In this document: piece by piece, positions 1 through 49,682 of the stretch | Numbering within the stretch: position 1 is the stretch's first letter | How the letters are laid out: every line of letters starts with the position of its first letter | NCBI GenBank assembly: GCA_024637015.1 | Contig: JAGXGE010000027.1 | Span: 1-49,682 of the forward strand | Source: Aequorivita sp. | GTDB taxonomy: Bacteria > Bacteroidota > Bacteroidia > Flavobacteriales > Flavobacteriaceae | Reading direction: 5' to 3' | DNA length: 49,682 nt | Program-made: the position numbers and the translations under genes | Notes under the pieces: generated by a model | Databases searched by the model: none | What the model was told of the DNA's origin: nothing | Seen by the model: only the letters and a program-made list of their open reading frames with translations

Positions 1-25
1 CAGCATATGGCAAATAGCTAAAACT

Positions 26-131
26 AAGGTGGTTATAGCGACGGGGCTCACCTCTTACCTTTCCGAACAGAGAAGTTAAGCCCGTTTGCGCCGATGGTAC
101 TGCATCCTGTGGGAGAGTAGGTCGCCGCCTT
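26..131 (+). rRNA. rrf: 5S ribosomal RNA
   Basis: The sequence carries the conserved 5S core: CCGAACAGAGAAGTTAAGC in loop B/helix III, then GATGGTACTGC and TGGGAGAGTAGGTCGCCGCC. The termini close as helix I: AAGGTGGT (26-33) pairs with GCCGCCTT (124-131), including two G-U pairs. About 106 nt is close to the usual bacterial length; the exact ends may shift by a few bases. Bases 1-25 are the end of the 23S-5S spacer, so the 23S gene should lie just outside the window to the left. Confidence 0.95.
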
Positions 132-136
132 CCTTT

Positions 137-172
137 AAAGCTCCCTCCATGTATTTGGAGGGGGCTTTTTTT
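137..172 (+). terminator. Intrinsic terminator of the rRNA operon
   Basis: AAAGCTCCCTCC (137-148) pairs with GGAGGGGGCTTT around an 8-nt loop and is followed by a T run. It begins six bases after 5S, as expected for the end of an rrn operon. Confidence 0.9.
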
Positions 173-551
173 ATGGAAAAAGAGGACTGAAACTCCATTA
201 CGGTCTTAGCAAAGCCCTTTTTTCTAGTCTAATTGGTCTGCTACTCTAATGTGCTGATTTATTTAAAGGGCTATTAAAACCTATGGAACAAATCGTCATA
301 TATAAAACTTCCTTTCCTGTAGTATTTATCGAAAAGTAAAAGTCTATTACTGAGTGGATACTCAATGGTATGAATGTGAAGGGATGCCTTTGTTCTTTAA
401 GAATGATTTTCATACATCATTCATAGTGTATTGTAAATGAAATATTTACTATTAATTCTTCAGTTTTTAAAATCACTCCTGTTTTCCAAAATATCTTTCT
501 TGTTTCATATAACAATATTTTATATCTTAACTCAATATAAATAAGATAATT
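173..551. other. Gene-free gap between the rRNA operon and the first protein gene
   Basis: I see no convincing gene here. The stretch is AT-rich. It holds an 8-bp inverted repeat, AGCCCTTT (213-220) and AAAGGGCT (265-272), 44 bases apart, of unknown meaning. A weak promoter candidate for the gene at 552 is TTG at 500-502 with TATATCTT at 521-528, which matches the Bacteroidota -7 box TAnnTTTG poorly. Confidence 0.5.
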
Positions 552-1895
552 ATGAAAACCTTTACTTCACTTAAAAGTGTAATTTCACTACTTTTAATTT
601 TAATAGTTGTATCAGTATCTGCACAGGAACGGATTGCTGTTATACAGGACTCACAGGTGCGATTACTTGATACCGACAATGGCGATATAATTAATCCATC
701 ATTTATTTCTTTGGATTCTGGAACTCCAAAAGCATTAATTCAAGTGGCGGATGAAATTTGGATTGCATACCAATTGGCAGACAAAATAGAGCGGTATGAT
801 CTTGATGGAAATCTTTTGAGTACAATTAATACTGGTATGGACAATATTCGAGGTTTATCCATTGTGAATGGAACTGAGGTATGGTTGTGTAATTCTGGAA
901 CTAATAATGGCGCGCCTGGTGAAGCTATTATCCGCTTTGATTTTAGCGGTAATAACTTAGGTTTTTTTAATACAACACCCCAATCAGACTCACCATTTGA
1001 TATTATTGATAATGGTGATGGAGAAGTGTATATTTCATATAGTGGAACCAGTAATATTGAGAGACGGGATTACAATGGTGCTTTTTTGGGGAATATTGTT
1101 GAGCAGGGTGTAGTTAATTTTGTCCAACAAATAGAAATTGAAGAACCAGGTGTGATTTTGGCGGCCGTATTTAGTATTATAAGTGGCGGAAATCAGAATG
1201 GCTTATATCGTTTTTCTGAAACTGACGGTTCTATAATTGATTATTGGAGCTTAGGTAATTTAAGAGGAGTTGCCAAACTTGGAAACGGAGATATTTTGTG
1301 GTCTAGTGGTGCTGGAATAAGTAAATTAAATCCAGATACAGGCGTGAGTGTTTTAATAAATAGTGGTACGACACAATATTTTGGAAGACTCAATCTGGAC
1401 GGTTGTGTAACACCAGCTACTCCTACTGGGGATTCTATGCAAACTTTTGTGCAGGGAGCAACATTGGCCGATATTGTTGTAGATCCAACAGATGTTACTT
1501 GGTTTGCTACTGAAGCAGACGCAATGAACAACACCAATCCATTGCCTTTAAATACTCTTTTAGAGAACGGGCAAACCTATTACGCAGTAAATATTGTTGA
1601 CGGGTGTTTAAGCGATCCTTTTGCTGTAACTGTAACAGTTACTTTAAGCACTACCGAGTTTAACGATACTAATTTTAGCTATTACCCAAATCCTGCCCGC
1701 GATATATTGACACTAAAGCATACGGCTATAATTTCTGAAATTTCTGTCAATAATTTATTGGGACAGAATTTACTCAATACACATCCCCAGACTTCTGAAG
1801 TAGAACTGGACTTATCCTTTTTGCCTAAAGGTATTTACTTAATAACCCTGAGGGCTAGTGAAAATATGACAACAATTAAAATTATTAAAGAATAA
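552..1895 (+). CDS. T9SS type A sorting domain-containing secreted protein
   Basis: Predicted secreted protein of 447 aa. A Sec signal peptide covers about residues 1-25 (hydrophobic core, end SVSAQ). Residues about 27-280 contain repeated short blades of the form YDLDGN, FDFSGN and RDYNGAF, suggesting an NHL or SMP-30-like beta-propeller. Residues about 283-365 resemble the Ig-like modules of Bacteroidota surface proteins. The last 70 residues form a type A T9SS sorting domain, with YYPNPARD near the start and PKGIYLITLR near the end. Family knowledge says this tail directs export by the type IX system and is then removed. The ligand or substrate is not recognisable. It is followed by a strong terminator and stands alone as a transcription unit. 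Confidence 0.88.
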   Translation: MKTFTSLKSVISLLLILIVVSVSAQERIAVIQDSQVRLLDTDNGDIINPSFISLDSGTPKALIQVADEIWIAYQLADKIERYDLDGNLLSTINTGMDNIRGLSIVNGTEVWLCNSGTNNGAPGEAIIRFDFSGNNLGFFNTTPQSDSPFDIIDNGDGEVYISYSGTSNIERRDYNGAFLGNIVEQGVVNFVQQIEIEEPGVILAAVFSIISGGNQNGLYRFSETDGSIIDYWSLGNLRGVAKLGNGDILWSSGAGISKLNPDTGVSVLINSGTTQYFGRLNLDGCVTPATPTGDSMQTFVQGATLADIVVDPTDVTWFATEADAMNNTNPLPLNTLLENGQTYYAVNIVDGCLSDPFAVTVTVTLSTTEFNDTNFSYYPNPARDILTLKHTAIISEISVNNLLGQNLLNTHPQTSEVELDLSFLPKGIYLITLRASENMTTIKIIKE

Positions 1896-1914
1896 CCAAT
1901 ATATTGAATATTAT

Positions 1915-1949
1915 GAAAAAAGGCTGCCATTTACTGGCAGCTTTTTTTT
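1915..1949. terminator. Bidirectional intrinsic terminator
   Basis: GCTGCCA (1923-1929) pairs with TGGCAGC (1935-1941) around a 5-nt loop, with an A run before and a T8 run after. It lies between two convergent genes and can serve both. Confidence 0.92.
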
Positions 1950-2049
1950 ATACATACCCAGTCAAAAATTGTTGTAACCAATGCTAATGTAAAATATTGA
2001 AAACATTCAGTGTTCTCGTATTCTCTCGGAAATTATACAAAGCTTTAAA

Positions 2050-2718
2050 TTATAAAAAATAGGCTATAACCACTGCCACAACTACCGCTGTCATTTTGGT
2101 AAGATTGAATTTATGGTTTTTTGAACTTTCAAAAAGAATTGTGGTTGAAACGTGAAGAAATATACCAATAACAACTGCAGTTATTTCAGTTTCATAGTGA
2201 TGAACAATGTTGTAGTTTGTGGAAATAAAACTGCTTAATGGTGTCATCAAAGCAAAAAAGAATAGAAAGAATAGAGTTGTAGACCTACGATAGCCAGCCG
2301 TTATAAAAAAGAAAGATAAAATTATTGCTACCGGAATTTTATGAATTATTATGGCAAGCAACAAATTATTTTCTTCTGAAATTGGAAAACCTTCCATAAA
2401 GGCGTGAATGCTGAGACTCACAAACAATATCCAAGGGAAATGCTTTGCTTCGGAATGTAGATGAACATGCCCGTGCTCTGCGCCTTTGGAAAAGAACTCG
2501 AGGAATATCTGCAATAAAATACCTAGCATTATATAAACGCCAATACTTTTCGATGGTGTTTCAAAGACCTCCGGCAATAGCTCAAATACGGTAATTGATA
2601 GAAGAAATGCCCCACTGAAAGCAAGGAAAACTTCCATATTGCGCAATTCCTTTTTCTTTAGGAATAAAGCAATGAAATAGCCTATGGCTACAGCCAAAAA
2701 AAGCAATAAATAACTCAT
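2050..2718 (-). CDS. ZIP family metal transporter
   Basis: Inner-membrane protein of 222 aa with about seven or eight hydrophobic segments, likely importing zinc or another divalent cation. A histidine-rich cytoplasmic-type loop (EHGHVHLH, residues 81-88) and the TM4 signature HAFMEG (His105, Glu109, Gly110) fit the ZIP family. The TM5 signature, usually H-x-x-P-E-G, reads HKIPVA (126-131), so the usual glutamate is valine. A longer frame opens at TTG 2721, but ATG at 2718 is preferred; it shares one base with the stop of the upstream methyltransferase gene, which indicates translational coupling. Metal specificity cannot be read from the sequence. Confidence 0.85.
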   Translation of the reverse strand: MSYLLLFLAVAIGYFIALFLKKKELRNMEVFLAFSGAFLLSITVFELLPEVFETPSKSIGVYIMLGILLQIFLEFFSKGAEHGHVHLHSEAKHFPWILFVSLSIHAFMEGFPISEENNLLLAIIIHKIPVAIILSFFFITAGYRRSTTLFFLFFFALMTPLSSFISTNYNIVHHYETEITAVVIGIFLHVSTTILFESSKNHKFNLTKMTAVVVAVVIAYFL

Positions 2719-3449
2719 CAATTAAAAATTAGTATTAATCTTTCGGAAGTGTTTCTATCAAAATCATTGAGTTGATAATCACCGAAAATGTGTTTTAATT
2801 CAACTTTTGCTTCTTTAAAGTAGGCTTTAAAATCTTCCAAAGTCAAAGCTTTTACACGCTCTGTATAAAAATAGTCTTTTCCTTTATCATTAAAACGTAT
2901 GTCTTTTACGATATAACCATCTTCAACGTATTTTTCAATATGAAAATCAATATCGCCCACTTTCTTTTCCTCTGAAGGAACTAATTTCTTAATTGCTAAC
3001 TCAACGTTCAAAAAATCAATAACCCCATACCCAGTTGTTTTTAACTCAGCCTTTATAGATTTGATAGTTCGTAGATTATCAATTTCGCTTTCAAAGTACC
3101 CAAAGCTCGTAAAAAGATTAAAAACTGCATCAAACTGTTTCGGATAGGGCAAACACATATCGTGCACTTCAAAATGGAGCTTTGGTTGTTCATATTGCTT
3201 GGCATCGTTAATACTTTCTTTGGAAAGATCAACTCCGGTAACGTCAAAACCTTGCTTATATAAATATTTAGAATGTCGACCTCGCCCACAGGCAAGATCC
3301 AGAATAGTGTCATTTTTTTGCAGCTTCAAATAGTTAGTAAGTGTATTCATAAATAACGCCGCCTCCCTGTGGCCTCTATCTTTATAGAGCTGATGGTAAT
3401 AGGGCGTATTGAACCACGAAGCATACCAATTGTCCTTTTCTTTTTGCAT
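2718..3449 (-). CDS. Class I SAM-dependent methyltransferase
   Basis: Soluble protein of 243 aa. Motif I, DLACGRG (51-57), and the acidic residue of GVDLS (about 73) form the SAM-binding site of the Rossmann-type methyltransferase fold. The N-terminus (WYASWFNTPYYHQLYKDRGH) resembles small-molecule methyltransferases of COG2226 type found across Bacteroidota. The substrate is unknown. It is the first gene of a two-gene unit with the ZIP transporter. A possible -7 box TATTTTAG lies about 23 bases upstream of its start, in a region shared with the divergent THUMP gene. Confidence 0.85.
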   Translation of the reverse strand: MQKEKDNWYASWFNTPYYHQLYKDRGHREAALFMNTLTNYLKLQKNDTILDLACGRGRHSKYLYKQGFDVTGVDLSKESINDAKQYEQPKLHFEVHDMCLPYPKQFDAVFNLFTSFGYFESEIDNLRTIKSIKAELKTTGYGVIDFLNVELAIKKLVPSEEKKVGDIDFHIEKYVEDGYIVKDIRFNDKGKDYFYTERVKALTLEDFKAYFKEAKVELKHIFGDYQLNDFDRNTSERLILIFN

Positions 3450-3454
3450 ACTTA

Positions 3455-3486
3455 TTGTTTCACCCTGCTAAAATACTGTATTTTTG
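3455..3486 (+). promoter_or_regulatory. Bacteroidota-type promoter of the THUMP methyltransferase gene
   Basis: TTG at 3455-3457 and a perfect TAnnTTTG box, TATTTTTG, at 3479-3486 are 21 bases apart. The start site predicted about 5 bases beyond the box leaves a short leader before ATG 3508. The box covers the TTG codon at 3484, which rules out that codon as the start. Confidence 0.65.
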
Positions 3487-3507
3487 CAGGAAATCTGTTT
3501 ATATATT

Positions 3508-4665
3508 ATGGTAAAGAATTTTAAAATGGTTGCCAAAACCCTTTTTGGTATGGAAGAACTTCTCGCACAGGAACTTCGCCAATTGGGCGCTTCATCTATT
3601 GAAATCGGTATTAGAAACGTTTCTTTTGAAGGCGATACCGGATTTATGTACAAAGCAAATTTATGTTGCAGAACCGCTATTAAAATCCTGAAACCAATCA
3701 CTGCCTTCAATATTTTTACTGAAGAAGACCTTTACAAGAAAATATATGAAATGCCGTGGGAAAATTATATGGATGTGAAAGGAGCATTAGCGGTAAACGC
3801 TACAGTTTTTTCTGATGTCTTCACACATTCACAATATATCGCACTTAAAACTAAAGATGCAATCGTTGACCGTTTTCGCGATAGGGAAGGAGTGCGTCCA
3901 GATGTAGACTTGGACCATCCCACACTTCGCATCAATATTCACATTGATAGAAATATTTGTACCGTTTCACTGGACAGTTCTGGGGAATCCCTGCACAAGC
4001 GCGGTTATAAAGTAGAAAGCACACTTGCGCCTATAAATGAAGTTTTGGCTGCAGGAATTATTATGCTTTCAGGATGGCAAGGTCAATGTAATTTCCTGGA
4101 CCCAATGTGTGGCGGTGGAACTATGCTAACCGAAGCTGCAATGATTGCGTGCAACATTCCGCCAAACTTAAACCGCGACGAATTCGGTTTTGAAACTTGG
4201 CCTGATTTTGATGTAGATCTTTATGAAAAAATTGAAGAAGCCGCACTCGCAAAAGTTCGAGATTTTCCACATAAAATTTATGGTTTTGATACCGACCCAG
4301 TAGCAATTAACAAGGCTAAGGAAAACATTAAAAGTGCTAATCTGCAGGATTTTATTGAAGTTAAGCAACAAGATTTCTTCCAAAGCGAAAAGGAGCAGGA
4401 CAAACCATTATATATTGTTTTCAACCCACCTTATGACGAGCGAATTTCGGTTAATGATATTGAAGAATTTTATAGTTCTATTGGCAATACCTTGAAACGC
4501 GGTTATCCTGGCACACAGGCCTGGATGATTACATCAAATATGGAAGCTTTGAAATTTGTTGGACTTCATCCTTCAAAAAAGATTAAGCTCTTTAACGGAA
4601 AACTGGAAGCGAAATTAGTGCGTTACGAAATGTATGAGGGTAGCAGGAAAGCCTCTAAACAGTAG
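3508..4665 (+). CDS. THUMP domain-containing class I SAM RNA methyltransferase (RlmL N-terminal-like)
   Basis: Cytoplasmic protein of 385 aa, homologous to the N2-guanine methyltransferase half of RlmL (COG0116/UPF0020). The N-terminal third is a THUMP RNA-binding region. The SAM-binding motif DPMCGGGT starts at about residue 198, and the catalytic motif NPPYDER starts at about 306. An NPPY motif is typical of enzymes that methylate exocyclic amines, here most likely a guanine of 23S rRNA. E. coli RlmL has an additional RlmK half, which is absent. The frame is open from TTG 3484, but ATG 3508 gives the usual start MVKNFKMVAKTLFG. It converges with DUF6048 with no visible terminator between them. 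Confidence 0.88.
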   Translation: MVKNFKMVAKTLFGMEELLAQELRQLGASSIEIGIRNVSFEGDTGFMYKANLCCRTAIKILKPITAFNIFTEEDLYKKIYEMPWENYMDVKGALAVNATVFSDVFTHSQYIALKTKDAIVDRFRDREGVRPDVDLDHPTLRINIHIDRNICTVSLDSSGESLHKRGYKVESTLAPINEVLAAGIIMLSGWQGQCNFLDPMCGGGTMLTEAAMIACNIPPNLNRDEFGFETWPDFDVDLYEKIEEAALAKVRDFPHKIYGFDTDPVAINKAKENIKSANLQDFIEVKQQDFFQSEKEQDKPLYIVFNPPYDERISVNDIEEFYSSIGNTLKRGYPGTQAWMITSNMEALKFVGLHPSKKIKLFNGKLEAKLVRYEMYEGSRKASKQ

Positions 4666-4691
4666 CTATTATTCAATTACAGTTTGAAATT

Positions 4692-5432
4692 TTATGGATT
4701 TTCTGTTTCAATTTTTGAAATCTCGGTTCGCTTAAAAATTGGAATTAAATACGAAATAGAGTATCCATAGCCTACTCCAAACTTACTGTAGTCATAGGTT
4801 CTATTGAAACCGGGAATATATAGGTTGGCGAAATTTTCAGGTTGGTCTTCCGTGATTTTTCTTTTAATTTGGGCATTTATTGAAAGGTAAAGGTTGTTGA
4901 ATATTTCGGTTTTTACGCCAATAATCACTTCGGCCCAATGTGCAGTCAAACCACTAAACTCTTGTGGTTCAGTTATAAGCTGTGATGGAAATGCAGGATT
5001 GTCTGTATAGATTCTGTAACTCAAAAGCTCCTGTTTAAAAGTTGAAAAACCATAGCGAAGTCCCAGAGTGATGGCATTCTCCATTCCCAACCAGTTTTCA
5101 TAAGCGTTATAATCAAAACCTATTTTGGCGTAGCTTCCGCTGGTTTTTGAGGTAACATAAGGTTCTATCCAATCTTTCTCTTCATTACCAAGTTCCAACG
5201 CGGCATAAAACTTTTTCGTCACCCTAAAATCGCCCATAATTTCAAAACCGGAATACCCATTTTCAACCAGGGTTCTTAAGGGTTTTGCCAAATCCACACC
5301 CACTCGTATCCCATATTTTTCAATTTTTGGAATTGTATCGTTGGATGTTTCATTTTTCTTTTGCGCCAACAAAATTTGGGCGCTACAAAAAAGACTAATG
5401 AAGAATAGTAAGGTGGGCTTCATTTTCATCAT
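4692..5432 (-). CDS. DUF6048 family outer-membrane protein
   Basis: Protein of 246 aa with a signal peptide ending at about residue 24 (ILLAQ). The rest has alternating hydrophobic and polar stretches rich in aromatic residues (for example FYAALELGNEEKDW and YGFSTFKQELLSY), as in a small outer-membrane beta-barrel. The combination with DUF6452 behind rlmD is one I recognise from Flavobacteriaceae and supports the DUF6048 assignment. Its function is not known. Its start lies 38 bases inside the DUF6452 gene, so translation is probably coupled. The start reads MMKMKP; ATG two codons further in is an equally possible start. Confidence 0.8.
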   Translation of the reverse strand: MMKMKPTLLFFISLFCSAQILLAQKKNETSNDTIPKIEKYGIRVGVDLAKPLRTLVENGYSGFEIMGDFRVTKKFYAALELGNEEKDWIEPYVTSKTSGSYAKIGFDYNAYENWLGMENAITLGLRYGFSTFKQELLSYRIYTDNPAFPSQLITEPQEFSGLTAHWAEVIIGVKTEIFNNLYLSINAQIKRKITEDQPENFANLYIPGFNRTYDYSKFGVGYGYSISYLIPIFKRTEISKIETENP

Positions 5433-5892
5433 TAATTGTGTCTCTATTTGTTATAATTTCTTGAATCCAGTTTTCAGTTCCTTCTTCCTCCAAAGTTGTT
5501 TCCAGATTGTCAAATTCTGTTTTAAACCCGCAGGCACGGGTTACATAACTATTATTGCGCTGGTAAACAAACACAATACTATCTACATTTATAATAGTAT
5601 CTGTAGTTGTTATTGTAGTTCGAATAAACTTGTATTTTGTTGTGTCAGAATTTGTGTTAAGCGGAATAGCAATGGAATCTGTGGTAGTTCGTGCTAAAAC
5701 CTCGACCGAATCCGTATAATTTGTTATAATACTTAAACCAACCACTTGTTTGCGGTTTGCAGGATTCACAATATCATTAAAAGTAATTATCAAATTAGGC
5801 GTAGTGGCCGTTCCTTCTGGACAGATATCATCCTTTGTACAGCCTTTGAAGGCGAAGATTATAAGGATGAGTACAATTATTCTTTTAATCAT
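5395..5892 (-). CDS. DUF6452 family lipoprotein
   Basis: Protein of 165 aa with a lipoprotein signal: hydrophobic stretch and Cys18 in the lipobox AFKGC. The mature part begins CTKDDICPEG and contains a threonine-rich beta region with two further cysteines expected to lie in the periplasm or at the outer membrane. It sits 26 bases downstream of rlmD and overlaps DUF6048 by 38 bases, forming a three-gene unit. The role is unknown; pairing with a barrel protein suggests the two work as an envelope complex, which is inference. Confidence 0.8.
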   Translation of the reverse strand: MIKRIIVLILIIFAFKGCTKDDICPEGTATTPNLIITFNDIVNPANRKQVVGLSIITNYTDSVEVLARTTTDSIAIPLNTNSDTTKYKFIRTTITTTDTIINVDSIVFVYQRNNSYVTRACGFKTEFDNLETTLEEEGTENWIQEIITNRDTINDENEAHLTILH

Positions 5893-5918
5893 ATTTTAAT
5901 TTTCGTTTTCAGAAAAAA

Positions 5919-7328
5919 TCAGCGCTTCTCCAAAAGTACAACATTTTCCACGTGATGCGTCTGCGGAAACATATCTACTGGTTGCACCTTTATCACTTTA
6001 TATTTTGAATCCAATAGCGCTAAGTCACGTGCTTGGGTCGCGCTGTTGCAACTTACATACACAATTTTTTCAGCACCCAAATTCAATAATTGCGTAACAA
6101 CATCAGCATGCATGCCATCTCGCGGTGGGTCTGTAATAACAACGTCTGGTTTTCCGTGGGTATTTATGAATTCTTCATTGAAAACCTTTTTCATATCGCC
6201 CACGTAGAATTCAACGTTTTCAATATTATTTAATTGCGCGTTTTGTTTTGCAGCTACAATTGCGTCCGGCACAGCTTCAACACCAATTACTTTCTTCGCT
6301 TTTTTAGCGACGAATTGCGCAATAGTTCCGGTTCCCGTGTAAAGATCATAAACCAGTTCATTTCCGCTTAAGCCTGCAAAATCGCGGGTTATTTTATAAA
6401 GCTCATACGCTTGCTCGCTATTGGTTTGGTAAAACGATTTGGCGTTTATTTTAAATTTCAAGCCTTCCATTTCTTCAAAAATATGATCCCTTCCGTAGAA
6501 AAGTTCTATTTCCTGATCATACAGGGTATCGTTTCCTTTGGAATTGATTACATATAAAAGAGAAGTAATCTGCGGAAATTCTTCAGCAACAGCTTTCAGC
6601 AATAATTTTCTATTCGCTTCATCTTCGTGAAAAAACTGCAACAAAACCATCACTTGGCCAGTAGAAGTGGTGCGGATCATCAAAGTCCGTAAAAACCCCT
6701 CCTGATTCCTAGTATTGAAGAAAGATAGTTTTAATTCTTCCGCTTTTGCTTTAATAAAATCACGGATTGCATTACTTGGATCGGCTTGAAGGTAGCAGAT
6801 TTCCAAATCCAAAATTTTGTCCCACATTCCAGGAATGTGGAAACCTAAAGCATTTCGGTTTTCTATTACTTCATCGCTTTTAATCTGTTCCAGCGTCAGC
6901 CATTTGTTGTCGCTAAAGGAAAACTCCATTTTGTTGCGATAGAAATATTGCTTTTCGGAACCGAGGATTAGTTGAAACTCGGGCAATTCTATTTTACCGA
7001 TGCGCTGCAGGTTTTGTTCAATTTCTTTTTGCTTATAAAAAAGCTGATGTTCATAGCCAAGATTTTGCCATTTGCAGCCACCACAAGTCCCGAAATGTGG
7101 ACAAACAGGCTCTACTCTTTTTTCGGAATATTTTGAAACCGAAAGTACGGAAGCTTCATAAAACGCTTTTTTCTTTTTGAAAGTTTGTACCGTTACAACA
7201 TCGCCCGGAACGGCATTATTAATAAAAACAATCCTTCCGTCAGGAGCTTTGGCAACGGCTTTCCCTTTTGCCCCAGCATCAATCACTTCGAGGTTCTCAA
7301 AAATCACTCTGTTATTTTTTCTAGCCAT
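5919..7328 (-). CDS. rlmD: 23S rRNA (uracil(1939)-C(5))-methyltransferase RlmD
   Basis: Enzyme of 469 aa (RumA/TrmA family) that methylates C5 of a uridine in 23S rRNA using SAM. An N-terminal TRAM domain spans about residues 5-62. Cys76, Cys82 and Cys85 (CPHFGTCGGC) with a later cysteine form the iron-sulfur cluster site. The C-terminal domain has the SAM motif YDLYTGTGTIAQ, the DPPRDG motif and the catalytic cysteine in YVSCNSATQARDL. Other TrmA-type uracil methyltransferases are possible targets within the same family. It heads an operon with DUF6452 and DUF6048. A perfect -7 box lies five bases before its ATG, predicting a leaderless transcript. Confidence 0.9.
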   Translation of the reverse strand: MARKNNRVIFENLEVIDAGAKGKAVAKAPDGRIVFINNAVPGDVVTVQTFKKKKAFYEASVLSVSKYSEKRVEPVCPHFGTCGGCKWQNLGYEHQLFYKQKEIEQNLQRIGKIELPEFQLILGSEKQYFYRNKMEFSFSDNKWLTLEQIKSDEVIENRNALGFHIPGMWDKILDLEICYLQADPSNAIRDFIKAKAEELKLSFFNTRNQEGFLRTLMIRTTSTGQVMVLLQFFHEDEANRKLLLKAVAEEFPQITSLLYVINSKGNDTLYDQEIELFYGRDHIFEEMEGLKFKINAKSFYQTNSEQAYELYKITRDFAGLSGNELVYDLYTGTGTIAQFVAKKAKKVIGVEAVPDAIVAAKQNAQLNNIENVEFYVGDMKKVFNEEFINTHGKPDVVITDPPRDGMHADVVTQLLNLGAEKIVYVSCNSATQARDLALLDSKYKVIKVQPVDMFPQTHHVENVVLLEKR

Positions 7329-7333
7329 AGGCG

Positions 7334-7341
7334 CAAAAATA
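7334..7341 (-). promoter_or_regulatory. -7 box (TATTTTTG) directly before rlmD
   Basis: A perfect match to TAnnTTTG ends five bases before the rlmD start codon, so the predicted transcription start falls at or next to the ATG. No clear TTG -33 element is seen at the expected distance. Confidence 0.5.
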
Positions 7342-7412
7342 GCATAATTGTTAAGTTTAAATCCTGTTAAGGCTTCAAAAATTGTGGGATTAATTTAGTA
7401 ATTTGCAAGCCA

Positions 7413-7429
7413 CGGAGGATTCCGCTCCG
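7413..7429 (+). promoter_or_regulatory. Small hairpin in the rocD leader
   Basis: CGGAG (7413-7417) and CTCCG (7425-7429) enclose a 7-base loop about 45 bases before the rocD start. The right half contains ATTCCGCTCCG, which recurs in inverted orientation in the cysteine desulfurase leader at 12708-12718. It may be a regulatory RNA element or a short dispersed repeat. Confidence 0.35.
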
Positions 7430-7474
7430 AAAAGCAGGAATCAATTATATTTTACTTCAAATTATTACAATCTT

Positions 7475-8752
7475 ATGTCAGTTTTAGAGCAAACAGCTTC
7501 ACAAAAAGCTATTGAATTGGAAAACAAATACGGAGCCCACAACTATCATCCGTTGCCTGTGGTTTTGAACAGGGGGGAAGGCGTGCATGTTTGGGATGTT
7601 GACGGCAAGAAATATTACGATTTTCTTTCGGCATACTCTGCGGTAAACCAAGGTCATTGCCACCCAAAAATTGTGGACGCAATGAATGAACAAGCAAAAA
7701 CGCTAACACTTACGTCACGTGCCTTTCATAATGATATGCTTGGAAAGTATGAAAAATTTGCTTGCGAGTTTTTCAATTACGATAAATTGCTTCCAATGAA
7801 TACGGGTGCCGAAGCTGTGGAAACTGCTTTAAAAATTTGTAGAAAGTGGGCGTATGAAAAGAAAGGCATCGATGAAAACGAAGCCGAAATTATAGTTTGT
7901 GAAAACAACTTCCACGGAAGAACTACTACTATTATATCCTTCAGTAACGATCCTGTAGCGAGAAAGCATTTTGGTCCCTACACCAAAGGATTCATAAAAA
8001 TAGAATACGACAATATAGAACAGCTACAACAACATTTGGAAAGCAATAAAAACATTGCTGGTTTTCTTGTGGAACCTATTCAAGGGGAAGCGGGCGTGTT
8101 TGTTCCTTCCGAAGGATATTTAAAAAAGGCCAAAGCACTTTGCGAAAAGCACAACGTACTTTTTATAGCAGATGAAGTGCAAACAGGAATTGCTCGAACA
8201 GGTCGCCTGTTGGCAACTTGTGGAGATTGCAGTTGTCCTGAAAAAAATTGTAGTGGAACGCCAGATGTAAAAGCTGATATTTTAATTCTTGGAAAGGCGA
8301 TGAGCGGTGGCGCTTATCCTGTTTCTGCAGTTCTTGCGAATGACAATGTGATGAGTGTTATAAAACCCGGAACACACGGTTCTACTTTTGGTGGAAATCC
8401 TGTGGCTGCTGCCGTTGCTATTGCGGCACTCAGCGTAGTTCGTGATGAAAATCTTGCTGAAAATGCGGAGCGGCTAGGAAAAATATTCCGAAGTGAATTG
8501 AACAAGTATATCGAGACAAGTAACATTGCAAAATCTGTCCGAGGAAAAGGCTTGCTTAATGCGGTTTTAATTAACGATTCCGAAGACAGCGACACAGCTT
8601 GGAACATCTGTTTAAAACTTCGCGATAACGGTTTGCTGGCAAAACCTACGCACGGAAATATTATCCGCTTTGCACCGCCATTGGTTATGAACGAGGAACA
8701 ACTTAGGGATTGTGTTTCAATAATTATTAAAACTTTAAAGGAGTTTGAATAG
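7475..8752 (+). CDS. rocD: Ornithine--oxo-acid transaminase
   Basis: Class III PLP-dependent aminotransferase of 425 aa that converts ornithine and 2-oxoglutarate to glutamate semialdehyde and glutamate in arginine/proline metabolism. Near the N-terminus GVHVWDVDGKKYYDFLSAYSA is typical of ornithine aminotransferases. NTGAEAVETA binds the PLP phosphate, DEVQTGIARTG follows, and Lys274 in LGKAMSGG is the Schiff-base lysine. An unusual loop with Cys249, Cys252, Cys254 and Cys259 lies just before that lysine. The frame stays open upstream to TTG 7403, but ATG 7475 (MSVLEQ) matches the usual start. It stands alone, divergent from rlmD and convergent with the next gene. Confidence 0.93.
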   Translation: MSVLEQTASQKAIELENKYGAHNYHPLPVVLNRGEGVHVWDVDGKKYYDFLSAYSAVNQGHCHPKIVDAMNEQAKTLTLTSRAFHNDMLGKYEKFACEFFNYDKLLPMNTGAEAVETALKICRKWAYEKKGIDENEAEIIVCENNFHGRTTTIISFSNDPVARKHFGPYTKGFIKIEYDNIEQLQQHLESNKNIAGFLVEPIQGEAGVFVPSEGYLKKAKALCEKHNVLFIADEVQTGIARTGRLLATCGDCSCPEKNCSGTPDVKADILILGKAMSGGAYPVSAVLANDNVMSVIKPGTHGSTFGGNPVAAAVAIAALSVVRDENLAENAERLGKIFRSELNKYIETSNIAKSVRGKGLLNAVLINDSEDSDTAWNICLKLRDNGLLAKPTHGNIIRFAPPLVMNEEQLRDCVSIIIKTLKEFE

Positions 8753-8779
8753 ATATAAAAAATAGTTTTAGATGTCCGT

Positions 8780-8872: not shown

Positions 8873-8874
8873 TT

Positions 8875-8909: not shown

Positions 8910-8951
8910 ATTATGGGAAAATTTAAACCCTCAGATGAGAGAGCTTAATTC

Positions 8952-40930: not shown

Positions 40931-42208
40931 CTATTCAAACTCCTTTAAAGTTTTAATAATTATTGAAACACAATCCCTAAGTTGTTCCTCGTTCATAACC
41001 AATGGCGGTGCAAAGCGGATAATATTTCCGTGCGTAGGTTTTGCCAGCAAACCGTTATCGCGAAGTTTTAAACAGATGTTCCAAGCTGTGTCGCTGTCTT
41101 CGGAATCGTTAATTAAAACCGCATTAAGCAAGCCTTTTCCTCGGACAGATTTTGCAATGTTACTTGTCTCGATATACTTGTTCAATTCACTTCGGAATAT
41201 TTTTCCTAGCCGCTCCGCATTTTCAGCAAGATTTTCATCACGAACTACGCTGAGTGCCGCAATAGCAACGGCAGCAGCCACAGGATTTCCACCAAAAGTA
41301 GAACCGTGTGTTCCGGGTTTTATAACACTCATCACATTGTCATTCGCAAGAACTGCAGAAACAGGATAAGCGCCACCGCTCATCGCCTTTCCAAGAATTA
41401 AAATATCAGCTTTTACATCTGGCGTTCCACTACAATTTTTTTCAGGACAACTGCAATCTCCACAAGTTGCCAACAGGCGACCTGTTCGAGCAATTCCTGT
41501 TTGCACTTCATCTGCTATAAAAAGTACGTTGTGCTTTTCGCAAAGTGCTTTGGCCTTTTTTAAATATCCTTCGGAAGGAACAAACACGCCCGCTTCCCCT
41601 TGAATAGGTTCCACAAGAAAACCAGCAATGTTTTTATTGCTTTCCAAATGTTGTTGTAGCTGTTCTATATTGTCGTATTCTATTTTTATGAATCCTTTGG
41701 TGTAGGGACCAAAATGCTTTCTCGCTACAGGATCGTTACTGAAGGATATAATAGTAGTAGTTCTTCCGTGGAAGTTGTTTTCACAAACTATAATTTCGGC
41801 TTCGTTTTCATCGATGCCTTTCTTTTCATACGCCCACTTTCTACAAATTTTTAAAGCAGTTTCCACAGCTTCGGCACCCGTATTCATTGGAAGCAATTTA
41901 TCGTAATTGAAAAACTCGCAAGCAAATTTTTCATACTTTCCAAGCATATCATTATGAAAGGCACGTGACGTAAGTGTTAGCGTTTTTGCTTGTTCATTCA
42001 TTGCGTCCACAATTTTTGGGTGGCAATGACCTTGGTTTACCGCAGAGTATGCCGAAAGAAAATCGTAATATTTCTTGCCGTCAACATCCCAAACATGCAC
42101 GCCTTCCCCCCTGTTCAAAACCACAGGCAACGGATGATAGTTGTGGGCTCCGTATTTGTTTTCCAATTCAATAGCTTTTTGTGAAGCTGTTTGCTCTAAA
42201 ACTGACAT
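40931..42208 (-). CDS. rocD: Ornithine--oxo-acid transaminase (mirror copy)
   Basis: Same 425-aa enzyme as 7475-8752, including the four-cysteine loop before Lys274. The leader hairpin recurs at 42254-42270. Confidence 0.93.
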   Translation of the reverse strand: MSVLEQTASQKAIELENKYGAHNYHPLPVVLNRGEGVHVWDVDGKKYYDFLSAYSAVNQGHCHPKIVDAMNEQAKTLTLTSRAFHNDMLGKYEKFACEFFNYDKLLPMNTGAEAVETALKICRKWAYEKKGIDENEAEIIVCENNFHGRTTTIISFSNDPVARKHFGPYTKGFIKIEYDNIEQLQQHLESNKNIAGFLVEPIQGEAGVFVPSEGYLKKAKALCEKHNVLFIADEVQTGIARTGRLLATCGDCSCPEKNCSGTPDVKADILILGKAMSGGAYPVSAVLANDNVMSVIKPGTHGSTFGGNPVAAAVAIAALSVVRDENLAENAERLGKIFRSELNKYIETSNIAKSVRGKGLLNAVLINDSEDSDTAWNICLKLRDNGLLAKPTHGNIIRFAPPLVMNEEQLRDCVSIIIKTLKEFE

Positions 42209-42341
42209 AAGATTGTAATAATTTGAAGTAAAATATAATTGATTCCTGCTTTTCGGAGCGGAATCCTCCGTGGCTTGCAAATTACTAAATTAATCCCACA
42301 ATTTTTGAAGCCTTAACAGGATTTAAACTTAACAATTATGC

Positions 42342-42349
42342 TATTTTTG
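42342..42349 (+). promoter_or_regulatory. -7 box before rlmD (mirror copy)
   Basis: TATTTTTG ending five bases before ATG 42355; copy of 7334-7341. Confidence 0.5.
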
Positions 42350-42354
42350 CGCCT

Positions 42355-43764
42355 ATGGCTAGAAAAAATAACAGAGTGATTTTTGAGAACCTCGAAGTGA
42401 TTGATGCTGGGGCAAAAGGGAAAGCCGTTGCCAAAGCTCCTGACGGAAGGATTGTTTTTATTAATAATGCCGTTCCGGGCGATGTTGTAACGGTACAAAC
42501 TTTCAAAAAGAAAAAAGCGTTTTATGAAGCTTCCGTACTTTCGGTTTCAAAATATTCCGAAAAAAGAGTAGAGCCTGTTTGTCCACATTTCGGGACTTGT
42601 GGTGGCTGCAAATGGCAAAATCTTGGCTATGAACATCAGCTTTTTTATAAGCAAAAAGAAATTGAACAAAACCTGCAGCGCATCGGTAAAATAGAATTGC
42701 CCGAGTTTCAACTAATCCTCGGTTCCGAAAAGCAATATTTCTATCGCAACAAAATGGAGTTTTCCTTTAGCGACAACAAATGGCTGACGCTGGAACAGAT
42801 TAAAAGCGATGAAGTAATAGAAAACCGAAATGCTTTAGGTTTCCACATTCCTGGAATGTGGGACAAAATTTTGGATTTGGAAATCTGCTACCTTCAAGCC
42901 GATCCAAGTAATGCAATCCGTGATTTTATTAAAGCAAAAGCGGAAGAATTAAAACTATCTTTCTTCAATACTAGGAATCAGGAGGGGTTTTTACGGACTT
43001 TGATGATCCGCACCACTTCTACTGGCCAAGTGATGGTTTTGTTGCAGTTTTTTCACGAAGATGAAGCGAATAGAAAATTATTGCTGAAAGCTGTTGCTGA
43101 AGAATTTCCGCAGATTACTTCTCTTTTATATGTAATCAATTCCAAAGGAAACGATACCCTGTATGATCAGGAAATAGAACTTTTCTACGGAAGGGATCAT
43201 ATTTTTGAAGAAATGGAAGGCTTGAAATTTAAAATAAACGCCAAATCGTTTTACCAAACCAATAGCGAGCAAGCGTATGAGCTTTATAAAATAACCCGCG
43301 ATTTTGCAGGCTTAAGCGGAAATGAACTGGTTTATGATCTTTACACGGGAACCGGAACTATTGCGCAATTCGTCGCTAAAAAAGCGAAGAAAGTAATTGG
43401 TGTTGAAGCTGTGCCGGACGCAATTGTAGCTGCAAAACAAAACGCGCAATTAAATAATATTGAAAACGTTGAATTCTACGTGGGCGATATGAAAAAGGTT
43501 TTCAATGAAGAATTCATAAATACCCACGGAAAACCAGACGTTGTTATTACAGACCCACCGCGAGATGGCATGCATGCTGATGTTGTTACGCAATTATTGA
43601 ATTTGGGTGCTGAAAAAATTGTGTATGTAAGTTGCAACAGCGCGACCCAAGCACGTGACTTAGCGCTATTGGATTCAAAATATAAAGTGATAAAGGTGCA
43701 ACCAGTAGATATGTTTCCGCAGACGCATCACGTGGAAAATGTTGTACTTTTGGAGAAGCGCTGA
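42355..43764 (+). CDS. rlmD: 23S rRNA (uracil(1939)-C(5))-methyltransferase RlmD (mirror copy)
   Basis: Same 469-aa enzyme as 5919-7328, with the Fe-S cysteines and catalytic SCN motif; heads the same three-gene unit. Confidence 0.9.
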   Translation: MARKNNRVIFENLEVIDAGAKGKAVAKAPDGRIVFINNAVPGDVVTVQTFKKKKAFYEASVLSVSKYSEKRVEPVCPHFGTCGGCKWQNLGYEHQLFYKQKEIEQNLQRIGKIELPEFQLILGSEKQYFYRNKMEFSFSDNKWLTLEQIKSDEVIENRNALGFHIPGMWDKILDLEICYLQADPSNAIRDFIKAKAEELKLSFFNTRNQEGFLRTLMIRTTSTGQVMVLLQFFHEDEANRKLLLKAVAEEFPQITSLLYVINSKGNDTLYDQEIELFYGRDHIFEEMEGLKFKINAKSFYQTNSEQAYELYKITRDFAGLSGNELVYDLYTGTGTIAQFVAKKAKKVIGVEAVPDAIVAAKQNAQLNNIENVEFYVGDMKKVFNEEFINTHGKPDVVITDPPRDGMHADVVTQLLNLGAEKIVYVSCNSATQARDLALLDSKYKVIKVQPVDMFPQTHHVENVVLLEKR

Positions 43765-43790
43765 TTTTTTCTGAAAACGAAAATTAAAAT

Positions 43791-44288
43791 ATGATTAAAA
43801 GAATAATTGTACTCATCCTTATAATCTTCGCCTTCAAAGGCTGTACAAAGGATGATATCTGTCCAGAAGGAACGGCCACTACGCCTAATTTGATAATTAC
43901 TTTTAATGATATTGTGAATCCTGCAAACCGCAAACAAGTGGTTGGTTTAAGTATTATAACAAATTATACGGATTCGGTCGAGGTTTTAGCACGAACTACC
44001 ACAGATTCCATTGCTATTCCGCTTAACACAAATTCTGACACAACAAAATACAAGTTTATTCGAACTACAATAACAACTACAGATACTATTATAAATGTAG
44101 ATAGTATTGTGTTTGTTTACCAGCGCAATAATAGTTATGTAACCCGTGCCTGCGGGTTTAAAACAGAATTTGACAATCTGGAAACAACTTTGGAGGAAGA
44201 AGGAACTGAAAACTGGATTCAAGAAATTATAACAAATAGAGACACAATTAATGATGAAAATGAAGCCCACCTTACTATTCTTCATTAG
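43791..44288 (+). CDS. DUF6452 family lipoprotein (mirror copy)
   Basis: Same 165-aa lipoprotein as 5395-5892, overlapping the next gene by 38 bases. Confidence 0.8.
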   Translation: MIKRIIVLILIIFAFKGCTKDDICPEGTATTPNLIITFNDIVNPANRKQVVGLSIITNYTDSVEVLARTTTDSIAIPLNTNSDTTKYKFIRTTITTTDTIINVDSIVFVYQRNNSYVTRACGFKTEFDNLETTLEEEGTENWIQEIITNRDTINDENEAHLTILH

Positions 44289-44991
44289 TCTTTTTTGTAG
44301 CGCCCAAATTTTGTTGGCGCAAAAGAAAAATGAAACATCCAACGATACAATTCCAAAAATTGAAAAATATGGGATACGAGTGGGTGTGGATTTGGCAAAA
44401 CCCTTAAGAACCCTGGTTGAAAATGGGTATTCCGGTTTTGAAATTATGGGCGATTTTAGGGTGACGAAAAAGTTTTATGCCGCGTTGGAACTTGGTAATG
44501 AAGAGAAAGATTGGATAGAACCTTATGTTACCTCAAAAACCAGCGGAAGCTACGCCAAAATAGGTTTTGATTATAACGCTTATGAAAACTGGTTGGGAAT
44601 GGAGAATGCCATCACTCTGGGACTTCGCTATGGTTTTTCAACTTTTAAACAGGAGCTTTTGAGTTACAGAATCTATACAGACAATCCTGCATTTCCATCA
44701 CAGCTTATAACTGAACCACAAGAGTTTAGTGGTTTGACTGCACATTGGGCCGAAGTGATTATTGGCGTAAAAACCGAAATATTCAACAACCTTTACCTTT
44801 CAATAAATGCCCAAATTAAAAGAAAAATCACGGAAGACCAACCTGAAAATTTCGCCAACCTATATATTCCCGGTTTCAATAGAACCTATGACTACAGTAA
44901 GTTTGGAGTAGGCTATGGATACTCTATTTCGTATTTAATTCCAATTTTTAAGCGAACCGAGATTTCAAAAATTGAAACAGAAAATCCATAA
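44251..44991 (+). CDS. DUF6048 family outer-membrane protein (mirror copy)
   Basis: Same 246-aa barrel-like protein as 4692-5432. Confidence 0.8.
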   Translation: MMKMKPTLLFFISLFCSAQILLAQKKNETSNDTIPKIEKYGIRVGVDLAKPLRTLVENGYSGFEIMGDFRVTKKFYAALELGNEEKDWIEPYVTSKTSGSYAKIGFDYNAYENWLGMENAITLGLRYGFSTFKQELLSYRIYTDNPAFPSQLITEPQEFSGLTAHWAEVIIGVKTEIFNNLYLSINAQIKRKITEDQPENFANLYIPGFNRTYDYSKFGVGYGYSISYLIPIFKRTEISKIETENP

Positions 44992-45017
44992 AATTTCAAA
45001 CTGTAATTGAATAATAG

Positions 45018-46175
45018 CTACTGTTTAGAGGCTTTCCTGCTACCCTCATACATTTCGTAACGCACTAATTTCGCTTCCAGTTTTCCGTTAAAGAGCTTAA
45101 TCTTTTTTGAAGGATGAAGTCCAACAAATTTCAAAGCTTCCATATTTGATGTAATCATCCAGGCCTGTGTGCCAGGATAACCGCGTTTCAAGGTATTGCC
45201 AATAGAACTATAAAATTCTTCAATATCATTAACCGAAATTCGCTCGTCATAAGGTGGGTTGAAAACAATATATAATGGTTTGTCCTGCTCCTTTTCGCTT
45301 TGGAAGAAATCTTGTTGCTTAACTTCAATAAAATCCTGCAGATTAGCACTTTTAATGTTTTCCTTAGCCTTGTTAATTGCTACTGGGTCGGTATCAAAAC
45401 CATAAATTTTATGTGGAAAATCTCGAACTTTTGCGAGTGCGGCTTCTTCAATTTTTTCATAAAGATCTACATCAAAATCAGGCCAAGTTTCAAAACCGAA
45501 TTCGTCGCGGTTTAAGTTTGGCGGAATGTTGCACGCAATCATTGCAGCTTCGGTTAGCATAGTTCCACCGCCACACATTGGGTCCAGGAAATTACATTGA
45601 CCTTGCCATCCTGAAAGCATAATAATTCCTGCAGCCAAAACTTCATTTATAGGCGCAAGTGTGCTTTCTACTTTATAACCGCGCTTGTGCAGGGATTCCC
45701 CAGAACTGTCCAGTGAAACGGTACAAATATTTCTATCAATGTGAATATTGATGCGAAGTGTGGGATGGTCCAAGTCTACATCTGGACGCACTCCTTCCCT
45801 ATCGCGAAAACGGTCAACGATTGCATCTTTAGTTTTAAGTGCGATATATTGTGAATGTGTGAAGACATCAGAAAAAACTGTAGCGTTTACCGCTAATGCT
45901 CCTTTCACATCCATATAATTTTCCCACGGCATTTCATATATTTTCTTGTAAAGGTCTTCTTCAGTAAAAATATTGAAGGCAGTGATTGGTTTCAGGATTT
46001 TAATAGCGGTTCTGCAACATAAATTTGCTTTGTACATAAATCCGGTATCGCCTTCAAAAGAAACGTTTCTAATACCGATTTCAATAGATGAAGCGCCCAA
46101 TTGGCGAAGTTCCTGTGCGAGAAGTTCTTCCATACCAAAAAGGGTTTTGGCAACCATTTTAAAATTCTTTACCAT
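45018..46175 (-). CDS. THUMP domain-containing class I SAM RNA methyltransferase (mirror copy)
   Basis: Same 385-aa enzyme as 3508-4665; ATG at 46175 is preferred over the TTG at 46199, which lies in the -7 box. Confidence 0.88.
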   Translation of the reverse strand: MVKNFKMVAKTLFGMEELLAQELRQLGASSIEIGIRNVSFEGDTGFMYKANLCCRTAIKILKPITAFNIFTEEDLYKKIYEMPWENYMDVKGALAVNATVFSDVFTHSQYIALKTKDAIVDRFRDREGVRPDVDLDHPTLRINIHIDRNICTVSLDSSGESLHKRGYKVESTLAPINEVLAAGIIMLSGWQGQCNFLDPMCGGGTMLTEAAMIACNIPPNLNRDEFGFETWPDFDVDLYEKIEEAALAKVRDFPHKIYGFDTDPVAINKAKENIKSANLQDFIEVKQQDFFQSEKEQDKPLYIVFNPPYDERISVNDIEEFYSSIGNTLKRGYPGTQAWMITSNMEALKFVGLHPSKKIKLFNGKLEAKLVRYEMYEGSRKASKQ

Positions 46176-46196
46176 AATATATAAACAGATTTCCTG

Positions 46197-46228
46197 CAAA
46201 AATACAGTATTTTAGCAGGGTGAAACAA
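46197..46228 (-). promoter_or_regulatory. Promoter of the THUMP methyltransferase gene (mirror copy)
   Basis: TTG, a 21-base spacer and TATTTTTG on the minus strand; copy of 3455-3486. Confidence 0.65.
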
Positions 46229-46233
46229 TAAGT

Positions 46234-46965
46234 ATGCAAAAAGAAAAGGACAATTGGTATGCTTCGTGGTTCAATACGCCCTATTACCATCAGCTCTATA
46301 AAGATAGAGGCCACAGGGAGGCGGCGTTATTTATGAATACACTTACTAACTATTTGAAGCTGCAAAAAAATGACACTATTCTGGATCTTGCCTGTGGGCG
46401 AGGTCGACATTCTAAATATTTATATAAGCAAGGTTTTGACGTTACCGGAGTTGATCTTTCCAAAGAAAGTATTAACGATGCCAAGCAATATGAACAACCA
46501 AAGCTCCATTTTGAAGTGCACGATATGTGTTTGCCCTATCCGAAACAGTTTGATGCAGTTTTTAATCTTTTTACGAGCTTTGGGTACTTTGAAAGCGAAA
46601 TTGATAATCTACGAACTATCAAATCTATAAAGGCTGAGTTAAAAACAACTGGGTATGGGGTTATTGATTTTTTGAACGTTGAGTTAGCAATTAAGAAATT
46701 AGTTCCTTCAGAGGAAAAGAAAGTGGGCGATATTGATTTTCATATTGAAAAATACGTTGAAGATGGTTATATCGTAAAAGACATACGTTTTAATGATAAA
46801 GGAAAAGACTATTTTTATACAGAGCGTGTAAAAGCTTTGACTTTGGAAGATTTTAAAGCCTACTTTAAAGAAGCAAAAGTTGAATTAAAACACATTTTCG
46901 GTGATTATCAACTCAATGATTTTGATAGAAACACTTCCGAAAGATTAATACTAATTTTTAATTGA
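46234..46965 (+). CDS. Class I SAM-dependent methyltransferase (mirror copy)
   Basis: Same 243-aa protein as 2718-3449, with the DLACGRG motif. Confidence 0.85.
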   Translation: MQKEKDNWYASWFNTPYYHQLYKDRGHREAALFMNTLTNYLKLQKNDTILDLACGRGRHSKYLYKQGFDVTGVDLSKESINDAKQYEQPKLHFEVHDMCLPYPKQFDAVFNLFTSFGYFESEIDNLRTIKSIKAELKTTGYGVIDFLNVELAIKKLVPSEEKKVGDIDFHIEKYVEDGYIVKDIRFNDKGKDYFYTERVKALTLEDFKAYFKEAKVELKHIFGDYQLNDFDRNTSERLILIFN

Positions 46966-47633
46966 TGAGTTATTTATTGCTTTTTTTGGCTGTAGCCATA
47001 GGCTATTTCATTGCTTTATTCCTAAAGAAAAAGGAATTGCGCAATATGGAAGTTTTCCTTGCTTTCAGTGGGGCATTTCTTCTATCAATTACCGTATTTG
47101 AGCTATTGCCGGAGGTCTTTGAAACACCATCGAAAAGTATTGGCGTTTATATAATGCTAGGTATTTTATTGCAGATATTCCTCGAGTTCTTTTCCAAAGG
47201 CGCAGAGCACGGGCATGTTCATCTACATTCCGAAGCAAAGCATTTCCCTTGGATATTGTTTGTGAGTCTCAGCATTCACGCCTTTATGGAAGGTTTTCCA
47301 ATTTCAGAAGAAAATAATTTGTTGCTTGCCATAATAATTCATAAAATTCCGGTAGCAATAATTTTATCTTTCTTTTTTATAACGGCTGGCTATCGTAGGT
47401 CTACAACTCTATTCTTTCTATTCTTTTTTGCTTTGATGACACCATTAAGCAGTTTTATTTCCACAAACTACAACATTGTTCATCACTATGAAACTGAAAT
47501 AACTGCAGTTGTTATTGGTATATTTCTTCACGTTTCAACCACAATTCTTTTTGAAAGTTCAAAAAACCATAAATTCAATCTTACCAAAATGACAGCGGTA
47601 GTTGTGGCAGTGGTTATAGCCTATTTTTTATAA
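46965..47633 (+). CDS. ZIP family metal transporter (mirror copy)
   Basis: Same 222-aa transporter as 2050-2718. Here the overlap reads TGATG: the stop of the methyltransferase and the ATG share one base. Confidence 0.85.
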   Translation: MSYLLLFLAVAIGYFIALFLKKKELRNMEVFLAFSGAFLLSITVFELLPEVFETPSKSIGVYIMLGILLQIFLEFFSKGAEHGHVHLHSEAKHFPWILFVSLSIHAFMEGFPISEENNLLLAIIIHKIPVAIILSFFFITAGYRRSTTLFFLFFFALMTPLSSFISTNYNIVHHYETEITAVVIGIFLHVSTTILFESSKNHKFNLTKMTAVVVAVVIAYFL

Positions 47634-47733
47634 TTTAAAGCTTTGTATAATTTCCGAGAGAATACGAGAACACTGAATGTTTTCAATATTTTACATTAGC
47701 ATTGGTTACAACAATTTTTGACTGGGTATGTAT

Positions 47734-47768
47734 AAAAAAAAGCTGCCAGTAAATGGCAGCCTTTTTTC
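47734..47768. terminator. Bidirectional terminator (mirror copy)
   Basis: Copy of 1915-1949, between the convergent ZIP and T9SS gene copies. Confidence 0.92.
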
Positions 47769-47787
47769 ATAATATTCAATATATTGG

Positions 47788-49131
47788 TTATTCTTTAATA
47801 ATTTTAATTGTTGTCATATTTTCACTAGCCCTCAGGGTTATTAAGTAAATACCTTTAGGCAAAAAGGATAAGTCCAGTTCTACTTCAGAAGTCTGGGGAT
47901 GTGTATTGAGTAAATTCTGTCCCAATAAATTATTGACAGAAATTTCAGAAATTATAGCCGTATGCTTTAGTGTCAATATATCGCGGGCAGGATTTGGGTA
48001 ATAGCTAAAATTAGTATCGTTAAACTCGGTAGTGCTTAAAGTAACTGTTACAGTTACAGCAAAAGGATCGCTTAAACACCCGTCAACAATATTTACTGCG
48101 TAATAGGTTTGCCCGTTCTCTAAAAGAGTATTTAAAGGCAATGGATTGGTGTTGTTCATTGCGTCTGCTTCAGTAGCAAACCAAGTAACATCTGTTGGAT
48201 CTACAACAATATCGGCCAATGTTGCTCCCTGCACAAAAGTTTGCATAGAATCCCCAGTAGGAGTAGCTGGTGTTACACAACCGTCCAGATTGAGTCTTCC
48301 AAAATATTGTGTCGTACCACTATTTATTAAAACACTCACGCCTGTATCTGGATTTAATTTACTTATTCCAGCACCACTAGACCACAAAATATCTCCGTTT
48401 CCAAGTTTGGCAACTCCTCTTAAATTACCTAAGCTCCAATAATCAATTATAGAACCGTCAGTTTCAGAAAAACGATATAAGCCATTCTGATTTCCGCCAC
48501 TTATAATACTAAATACGGCCGCCAAAATCACACCTGGTTCTTCAATTTCTATTTGTTGGACAAAATTAACTACACCCTGCTCAACAATATTCCCCAAAAA
48601 AGCACCATTGTAATCCCGTCTCTCAATATTACTGGTTCCACTATATGAAATATACACTTCTCCATCACCATTATCAATAATATCAAATGGTGAGTCTGAT
48701 TGGGGTGTTGTATTAAAAAAACCTAAGTTATTACCGCTAAAATCAAAGCGGATAATAGCTTCACCAGGCGCGCCATTATTAGTTCCAGAATTACACAACC
48801 ATACCTCAGTTCCATTCACAATGGATAAACCTCGAATATTGTCCATACCAGTATTAATTGTACTCAAAAGATTTCCATCAAGATCATACCGCTCTATTTT
48901 GTCTGCCAATTGGTATGCAATCCAAATTTCATCCGCCACTTGAATTAATGCTTTTGGAGTTCCAGAATCCAAAGAAATAAATGATGGATTAATTATATCG
49001 CCATTGTCGGTATCAAGTAATCGCACCTGTGAGTCCTGTATAACAGCAATCCGTTCCTGTGCAGATACTGATACAACTATTAAAATTAAAAGTAGTGAAA
49101 TTACACTTTTAAGTGAAGTAAAGGTTTTCAT
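47788..49131 (-). CDS. T9SS type A sorting domain-containing secreted protein (mirror copy)
   Basis: Same 447-aa protein as 552-1895 with signal peptide, propeller-like region, Ig-like module and sorting tail. Confidence 0.88.
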   Translation of the reverse strand: MKTFTSLKSVISLLLILIVVSVSAQERIAVIQDSQVRLLDTDNGDIINPSFISLDSGTPKALIQVADEIWIAYQLADKIERYDLDGNLLSTINTGMDNIRGLSIVNGTEVWLCNSGTNNGAPGEAIIRFDFSGNNLGFFNTTPQSDSPFDIIDNGDGEVYISYSGTSNIERRDYNGAFLGNIVEQGVVNFVQQIEIEEPGVILAAVFSIISGGNQNGLYRFSETDGSIIDYWSLGNLRGVAKLGNGDILWSSGAGISKLNPDTGVSVLINSGTTQYFGRLNLDGCVTPATPTGDSMQTFVQGATLADIVVDPTDVTWFATEADAMNNTNPLPLNTLLENGQTYYAVNIVDGCLSDPFAVTVTVTLSTTEFNDTNFSYYPNPARDILTLKHTAIISEISVNNLLGQNLLNTHPQTSEVELDLSFLPKGIYLITLRASENMTTIKIIKE

Positions 49132-49510
49132 AATTATCTTATTTATATTGAGTTAAGATATAAAATATTGTTATATGAAACAAGAAAGATATTTTGGAAA
49201 ACAGGAGTGATTTTAAAAACTGAAGAATTAATAGTAAATATTTCATTTACAATACACTATGAATGATGTATGAAAATCATTCTTAAAGAACAAAGGCATC
49301 CCTTCACATTCATACCATTGAGTATCCACTCAGTAATAGACTTTTACTTTTCGATAAATACTACAGGAAAGGAAGTTTTATATATGACGATTTGTTCCAT
49401 AGGTTTTAATAGCCCTTTAAATAAATCAGCACATTAGAGTAGCAGACCAATTAGACTAGAAAAAAGGGCTTTGCTAAGACCGTAATGGAGTTTCAGTCCT
49501 CTTTTTCCAT
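49132..49510. other. Gene-free gap before the right-hand rRNA terminator (mirror copy)
   Basis: Copy of 173-551. Nothing is seen beyond the AGCCCTTT/AAAGGGCT inverted repeat, here at 49411-49418 and 49463-49470. Confidence 0.5.
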
Positions 49511-49546
49511 AAAAAAAGCCCCCTCCAAATACATGGAGGGAGCTTT
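49511..49546 (-). terminator. rRNA operon terminator (mirror copy)
   Basis: Copy of 137-172 downstream of the right-hand 5S gene. Confidence 0.9.
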
Positions 49547-49551
49547 AAAGG

Positions 49552-49657
49552 AAGGCGGCGACCTACTCTCCCACAGGATGCAGTACCATCGGCGCAAACG
49601 GGCTTAACTTCTCTGTTCGGAAAGGTAAGAGGTGAGCCCCGTCGCTATAACCACCTT
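49552..49657 (-). rRNA. rrf: 5S ribosomal RNA (mirror copy)
   Basis: Copy of 26-131 on the minus strand; the 23S gene would lie beyond the right end of the window. Confidence 0.95.
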
Positions 49658-49682
49658 AGTTTTAGCTATTTGCCATATGCTG

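Follow-up and report, generated by a model that had tools for sequence, protein, structure and literature searches.

A perfectly mirrored contig in an Aequorivita genome assembly is very probably a foldback at the aroQ terminator

The whole stretch of DNA analysed here (49,682 bases, below called the window) makes up all of contig C1 in an Aequorivita genome assembled into 39 contigs (3,220,656 bases, completeness listed as 99.98%). Its two halves mirror each other exactly. Judged from the sequence and from the gene order in relatives, this palindrome is very probably an assembly foldback, that is, it is present in the sequence but not in the organism. The turning point is the terminator of aroQ, and the true continuation of the chromosome is very probably found where another contig, C27, begins.

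The window was compared with its own reverse complement position by position. The claim of the preliminary description that it forms a perfect palindrome proved exact: there are no mismatches over 49,682 positions, no N and no spacer, and the axis falls between positions 24841 and 24842. The inner 500 bases of the arm have two mirrored matches in the own genome and one 30-base partial match on C31 (E <= 0.001). Outside the two copies there is no unique sequence: they reach to both contig ends and stop there at one rRNA node. Natural spacer-free perfect palindromes of at least 20 bases were collected from 507,441 bases, a part of the own genome that excludes the right arm of C1. Their lengths are 20-38 bases, and a chance origin of the mirror is thus excluded. 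Some natural palindromes lie inside contigs with no break, among them C15:194278-194315 (38 bases), C27:10066-10099 (34 bases) and C15:53747-53778 (32 bases).

The features of the window are listed in Table 1. Between the 5S rRNA and aroQ the arm is filled with ordinary chromosomal genes, as seen in an NCBIfam scan of 20 of the 23 arm ORFs of at least 100 amino acids, two of which matched nothing. The gene names aroQ, xerD, rny (RNase Y) and rlmD, assigned earlier without database searches, hold, as all four score over the curated NCBIfam cut-offs. The closest named match of aroQ is from A. soesokkakensis (96% identity). A 6S-Flavo RNA was found at positions 18932-19040, immediately upstream of the RNase Y gene. 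Two adjacent genes encoding TDE1717-type beta-barrel proteins occupy positions 22908-24301 between xerD and aroQ, the first of them scoring below the family cut-off. In relatives this place is matched repeatedly by several stretches (e.g. in L118, L127 and L129), and thus the number of TDE1717-type genes between xerD and aroQ seems to vary.

Table 1. Coordinates of the features of contig C1
Feature	Positions	Strand	Basis
Arm, ordinary chromosomal segment from 5S rRNA to the aroQ terminator, taken as real	1..24841	+	collinear relatives
Exact mirror of the arm, taken as spurious	24842..49682	-	0 mismatches; aroQ single-copy elsewhere
141 bases common to the start of C18, including 5S rRNA (25-133)	1..141	+	exact match
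Mirror of those 141 bases; C1 ends where it began	49542..49682	-	exact match
aroQ, type II 3-dehydroquinate dehydratase	24374..24790	+	NCBIfam TIGR01088, above cut-off
aroQ, mirror copy	24893..25309	-	sequence
Axis, aroQ terminator hairpin CCGCA-CTAG-TGCGG between A and T runs (38 bases marked; natural extent on the right side presumed)	24823..24860	.	sequence; homologous terminators in relatives

The preliminary description had preferred a foldback artefact and had proposed that relatives be consulted for the real neighbour of aroQ. This comparison supports the preference. An aroQ match was found in 55 of the 58 other genomes, exactly one in each, and only the own genome has two. In the same genus, 23 of 25 loci have a convergent lpdA gene after aroQ (1.5-kb flank), within 435 bases in 22 of them and at a distance of 1.4 kb in L028; it was not found in this flank of the remaining two, L024 and L029. 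In a wider range, lpdA occurs in the aroQ flank of 54 of 80 named loci. It was not found in the flank of the other 26, of which 18 have the full 10 kb and eight have less than 10 kb. A second aroQ on the opposite strand was seen in none of the 109 loci of relatives, within the flanking stretch examined.

The own genome does contain an lpdA orthologue (97% identity), on the minus strand at C27:118-1491, with the stop codon at C27:115-117. Contig C27 opens with a 109-base array of GCCTAAA directly at its start. In all four relatives compared, G020, G027, G016 and G001, of which the last two are single-contig genomes, the end of the arm and the start of C27 align in order on one contig. The gap between them is 42 bases in G020 (arm end L123:1316, C27 start 1359), 74 in G027 (arm base 24789 at L128:6188, C27 start at L128:6263), 101 in G016 (L120:5774 and 5876) and 129 in G001 (L118:6045 and 6175). 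Past this junction C27 is collinear with relatives, with gaps, for many kilobases. On the other side, the arm is largely collinear, in the stretches compared, with two single-contig genomes, over arm positions 1782-24789 in G016, where there are insertions, and 2046-24786 in G015; in G001, the alignment within the stretch compared was limited to arm 12644-24789. The collinearity across the junction in four of four relatives argues that the arm very probably continues into C27 in the chromosome. The assembly yielded no stretch connecting C1 with C27: searches for the hairpin, allowing up to three mismatches, and for its right half gave only C1.

Arrays of the kind that opens C27 were then counted in the same 507,441 bases. 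Exact heptamer arrays of at least 93 bases were observed only at contig ends, namely at seven of the 76 ends other than those of C1 (C7E, C11E, C16S, C24S, C27S, C31S and C39S; the C27S array is L139:1-109), and the longest exact heptamer array away from contig ends has 84 bases. For the last 49 bases of C18, the sequence was taken from the comparison of contig ends. Thus long heptamer arrays break this assembly. By period, there are 22 exact arrays of period 7 and six of period 8; none were found of periods 5, 6, 9, 10 and 11. The 7-base tandem arrays vary in unit and length by place and species, and often lie between convergent genes. The GCCTAAA unit itself stands between the terminator and lpdA in L012 (G027), and other heptamer arrays separate aroQ from lpdA in L008, L010, L016, L018, L019, L030 and L039. 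PMC4679880 describes a different intergenic heptamer, TAACTGA, from five Bacteroidetes.

The axis coincides with a short natural palindrome, the terminator hairpin of aroQ, whose loop CTAG is self-complementary. Homologous terminators follow aroQ in relatives. Those in L009 and L017 are likewise spacer-free, with 26 bases, and those in L010 and L016 have an identical right half and a loop longer by one base. The preliminary description had reckoned with 28 bases here; judged from relatives such as L012, L018 and L019, the natural palindrome may be longer and reach 36-38 bases. A hairpin of this kind does not by itself fold a contig. The suggestion that any spacer-free hairpin does so was rejected, since seven of the eight distinct palindromes of at least 22 bases (up to 38) in the 507,441 bases were assembled straight through.

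Both ends of C1 lie at one node of the assembly graph. They start with the same 141 bases as C18, and the identity stops at base 142. Overlaps of 15-600 bases were listed for all 78 contig ends. Fifteen of the 21 overlaps are exactly 141 bases long, and two of the fifteen join C18 to either end of C1. The others comprise two of 140 bases, one each of 108, 91 and 26 bases, and the mirror of C1 with itself. Overlaps of 141 bases are expected from a de Bruijn graph with k = 141, and in such a graph a contig that turns at a palindrome and returns to its starting node is a normal non-branching path. One methods passage of PMC9927493 describes a MEGAHIT run with a largest k of 141; MEGAHIT may have been used for the own assembly. 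A search of that assembly gave no 16S or 23S rRNA, even though both C1 and C18 start at a 5S gene; these genes may have been collapsed and left unbinned. In G016, a 16S gene lies upstream of the region equivalent to the arm, at a distance that would fit an rRNA operon. The stretch expected to hold the 5S gene is N in both G016 and G015, and the upstream rRNA operon is only partly confirmed in the single-contig relatives.

The behaviour of such a locus was followed in a toy assembler, a simplified model and not the real program, in which k was increased and a 38-base hairpin was set between random flanks. When the right side of the hairpin was lost, a whole-length palindrome appeared in seven of nine runs (settings B, 2 of 3; B2, 2 of 3; D, 3 of 3) and no fold in the other two. 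When the right side was present, no whole-length palindrome appeared in any of 12 runs (settings A, A2, C and D2, three each). In settings B and B2, which had no fold reads, the fold occurred in four of six runs. Chimeras from amplification, put forward earlier as a cause, are thus not required: losing the right-hand exit is enough in this model.

In the best supported order, where the adjacency of C27 rests on relatives, the real chromosome would read from the 5S end of an rRNA operon through the 24.8-kb arm, aroQ and its terminator into the GCCTAAA array and lpdA of C27. The short piece that separates the terminator from C27 was probably dropped by the assembler owing to the array. Because the terminator is a perfect palindrome, the only exit left in the double-stranded k-mer graph would have been the reverse strand of the arm. 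The contig would then have run back out to the rRNA node where it started, which would explain why the mirror is exact, without spacer or mismatch, and why the two ends are identical. Chimeric (fold-back) reads may have contributed to this, and are not required for it.

One possibility is that fold-back chimeras, made at the bench by copying primed from a hairpin while the DNA was amplified or the library prepared, gave real reads across the axis, which the assembler followed. The contig would still be an artefact, so this variant is compatible with the assembly foldback and is counted inside our confidence in it; we regard it as doubtful, with perhaps some part to play. Contigs C22 and C8 share an overlap of 141 bases, and the start of C8 falls exactly on the edge of a maximal spacer-free palindrome of 26 bases. 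Such a pattern is expected from fold reads where both sides are present, and the C22/C8 junction is perhaps a second fold scar. In setting C of the toy assembler, which combined fold reads with a retained right side, the contig broke at the hairpin in two of three runs, and a small palindromic contig appeared in all three. Palindromic reads from MDA, inverted copies in the sequencing data that can promote misassembly, are described in PMC13265396. Those are long reads of tardigrade mitogenomes, and nothing here indicates that the DNA behind C1 was amplified. Moreover, the toy assembler folds without such reads, and the seven palindromes of 22-38 bases were assembled without a break; fold reads are therefore a secondary possibility.

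Mirrored contigs as artefacts are of a kind already described. Exactly mirrored contigs in single-cell assemblies of Synechococcus are considered very likely assembly artefacts (PMC12755884, eLife 2025). That material consists of single amplified genomes of a cyanobacterium, and the passage on these contigs names no cause at the axis. Palindromic contigs of Mycobacterium bovis with duplicate sets of identical genes are considered a likely assembly error (PMC9455707, Microb Genom 2022). They resemble C1 in duplicating identical genes; the organism is a different one, and the passage concerned connects them with neither a hairpin nor a tandem array.

That the chromosome really carries a perfect 24.8-kb inverted duplication in head-to-head orientation is very improbable. 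The mirror form of the sequence is all that speaks for such a duplication, and the true neighbour of aroQ on C27 speaks against it, as do the ends of C1, both of which stop at the rRNA node common to C18. Long perfect palindromes are unstable in bacteria. The two copies show no difference across 24,841 bases, and two aroQ genes were seen in none of the other genomes. Nor do we give any real credence to a mixed population, in which a fraction of the sampled cells would carry a real perfect 24.8-kb inverted duplication turning at the aroQ terminator beside the normal arrangement. A hairpin-ended linear replicon in its replicated form, again suggested by the mirror form alone, is the least probable reading. 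The arm carries chromosomal genes, whose neighbours are the same in single-contig relatives, and terminators like the one at the axis occupy the same place in relatives. No telomere-resolvase or replication-initiator family was found among the 20 of 23 arm ORFs covered by the NCBIfam scan, two of which had no match.

Given the assembly foldback, the arm should be kept once, and C27 should be placed after aroQ. If this reading is right, C1 burdens a genome listed as 99.98% complete with 24.8 kb of spurious sequence, including spurious duplicates of aroQ, xerD, rny, rlmD and other genes. Such contigs would be recognisable by sequence alone: they are identical to their reverse complement, they have a natural hairpin at the axis, and the true neighbour is found at the end of another contig.
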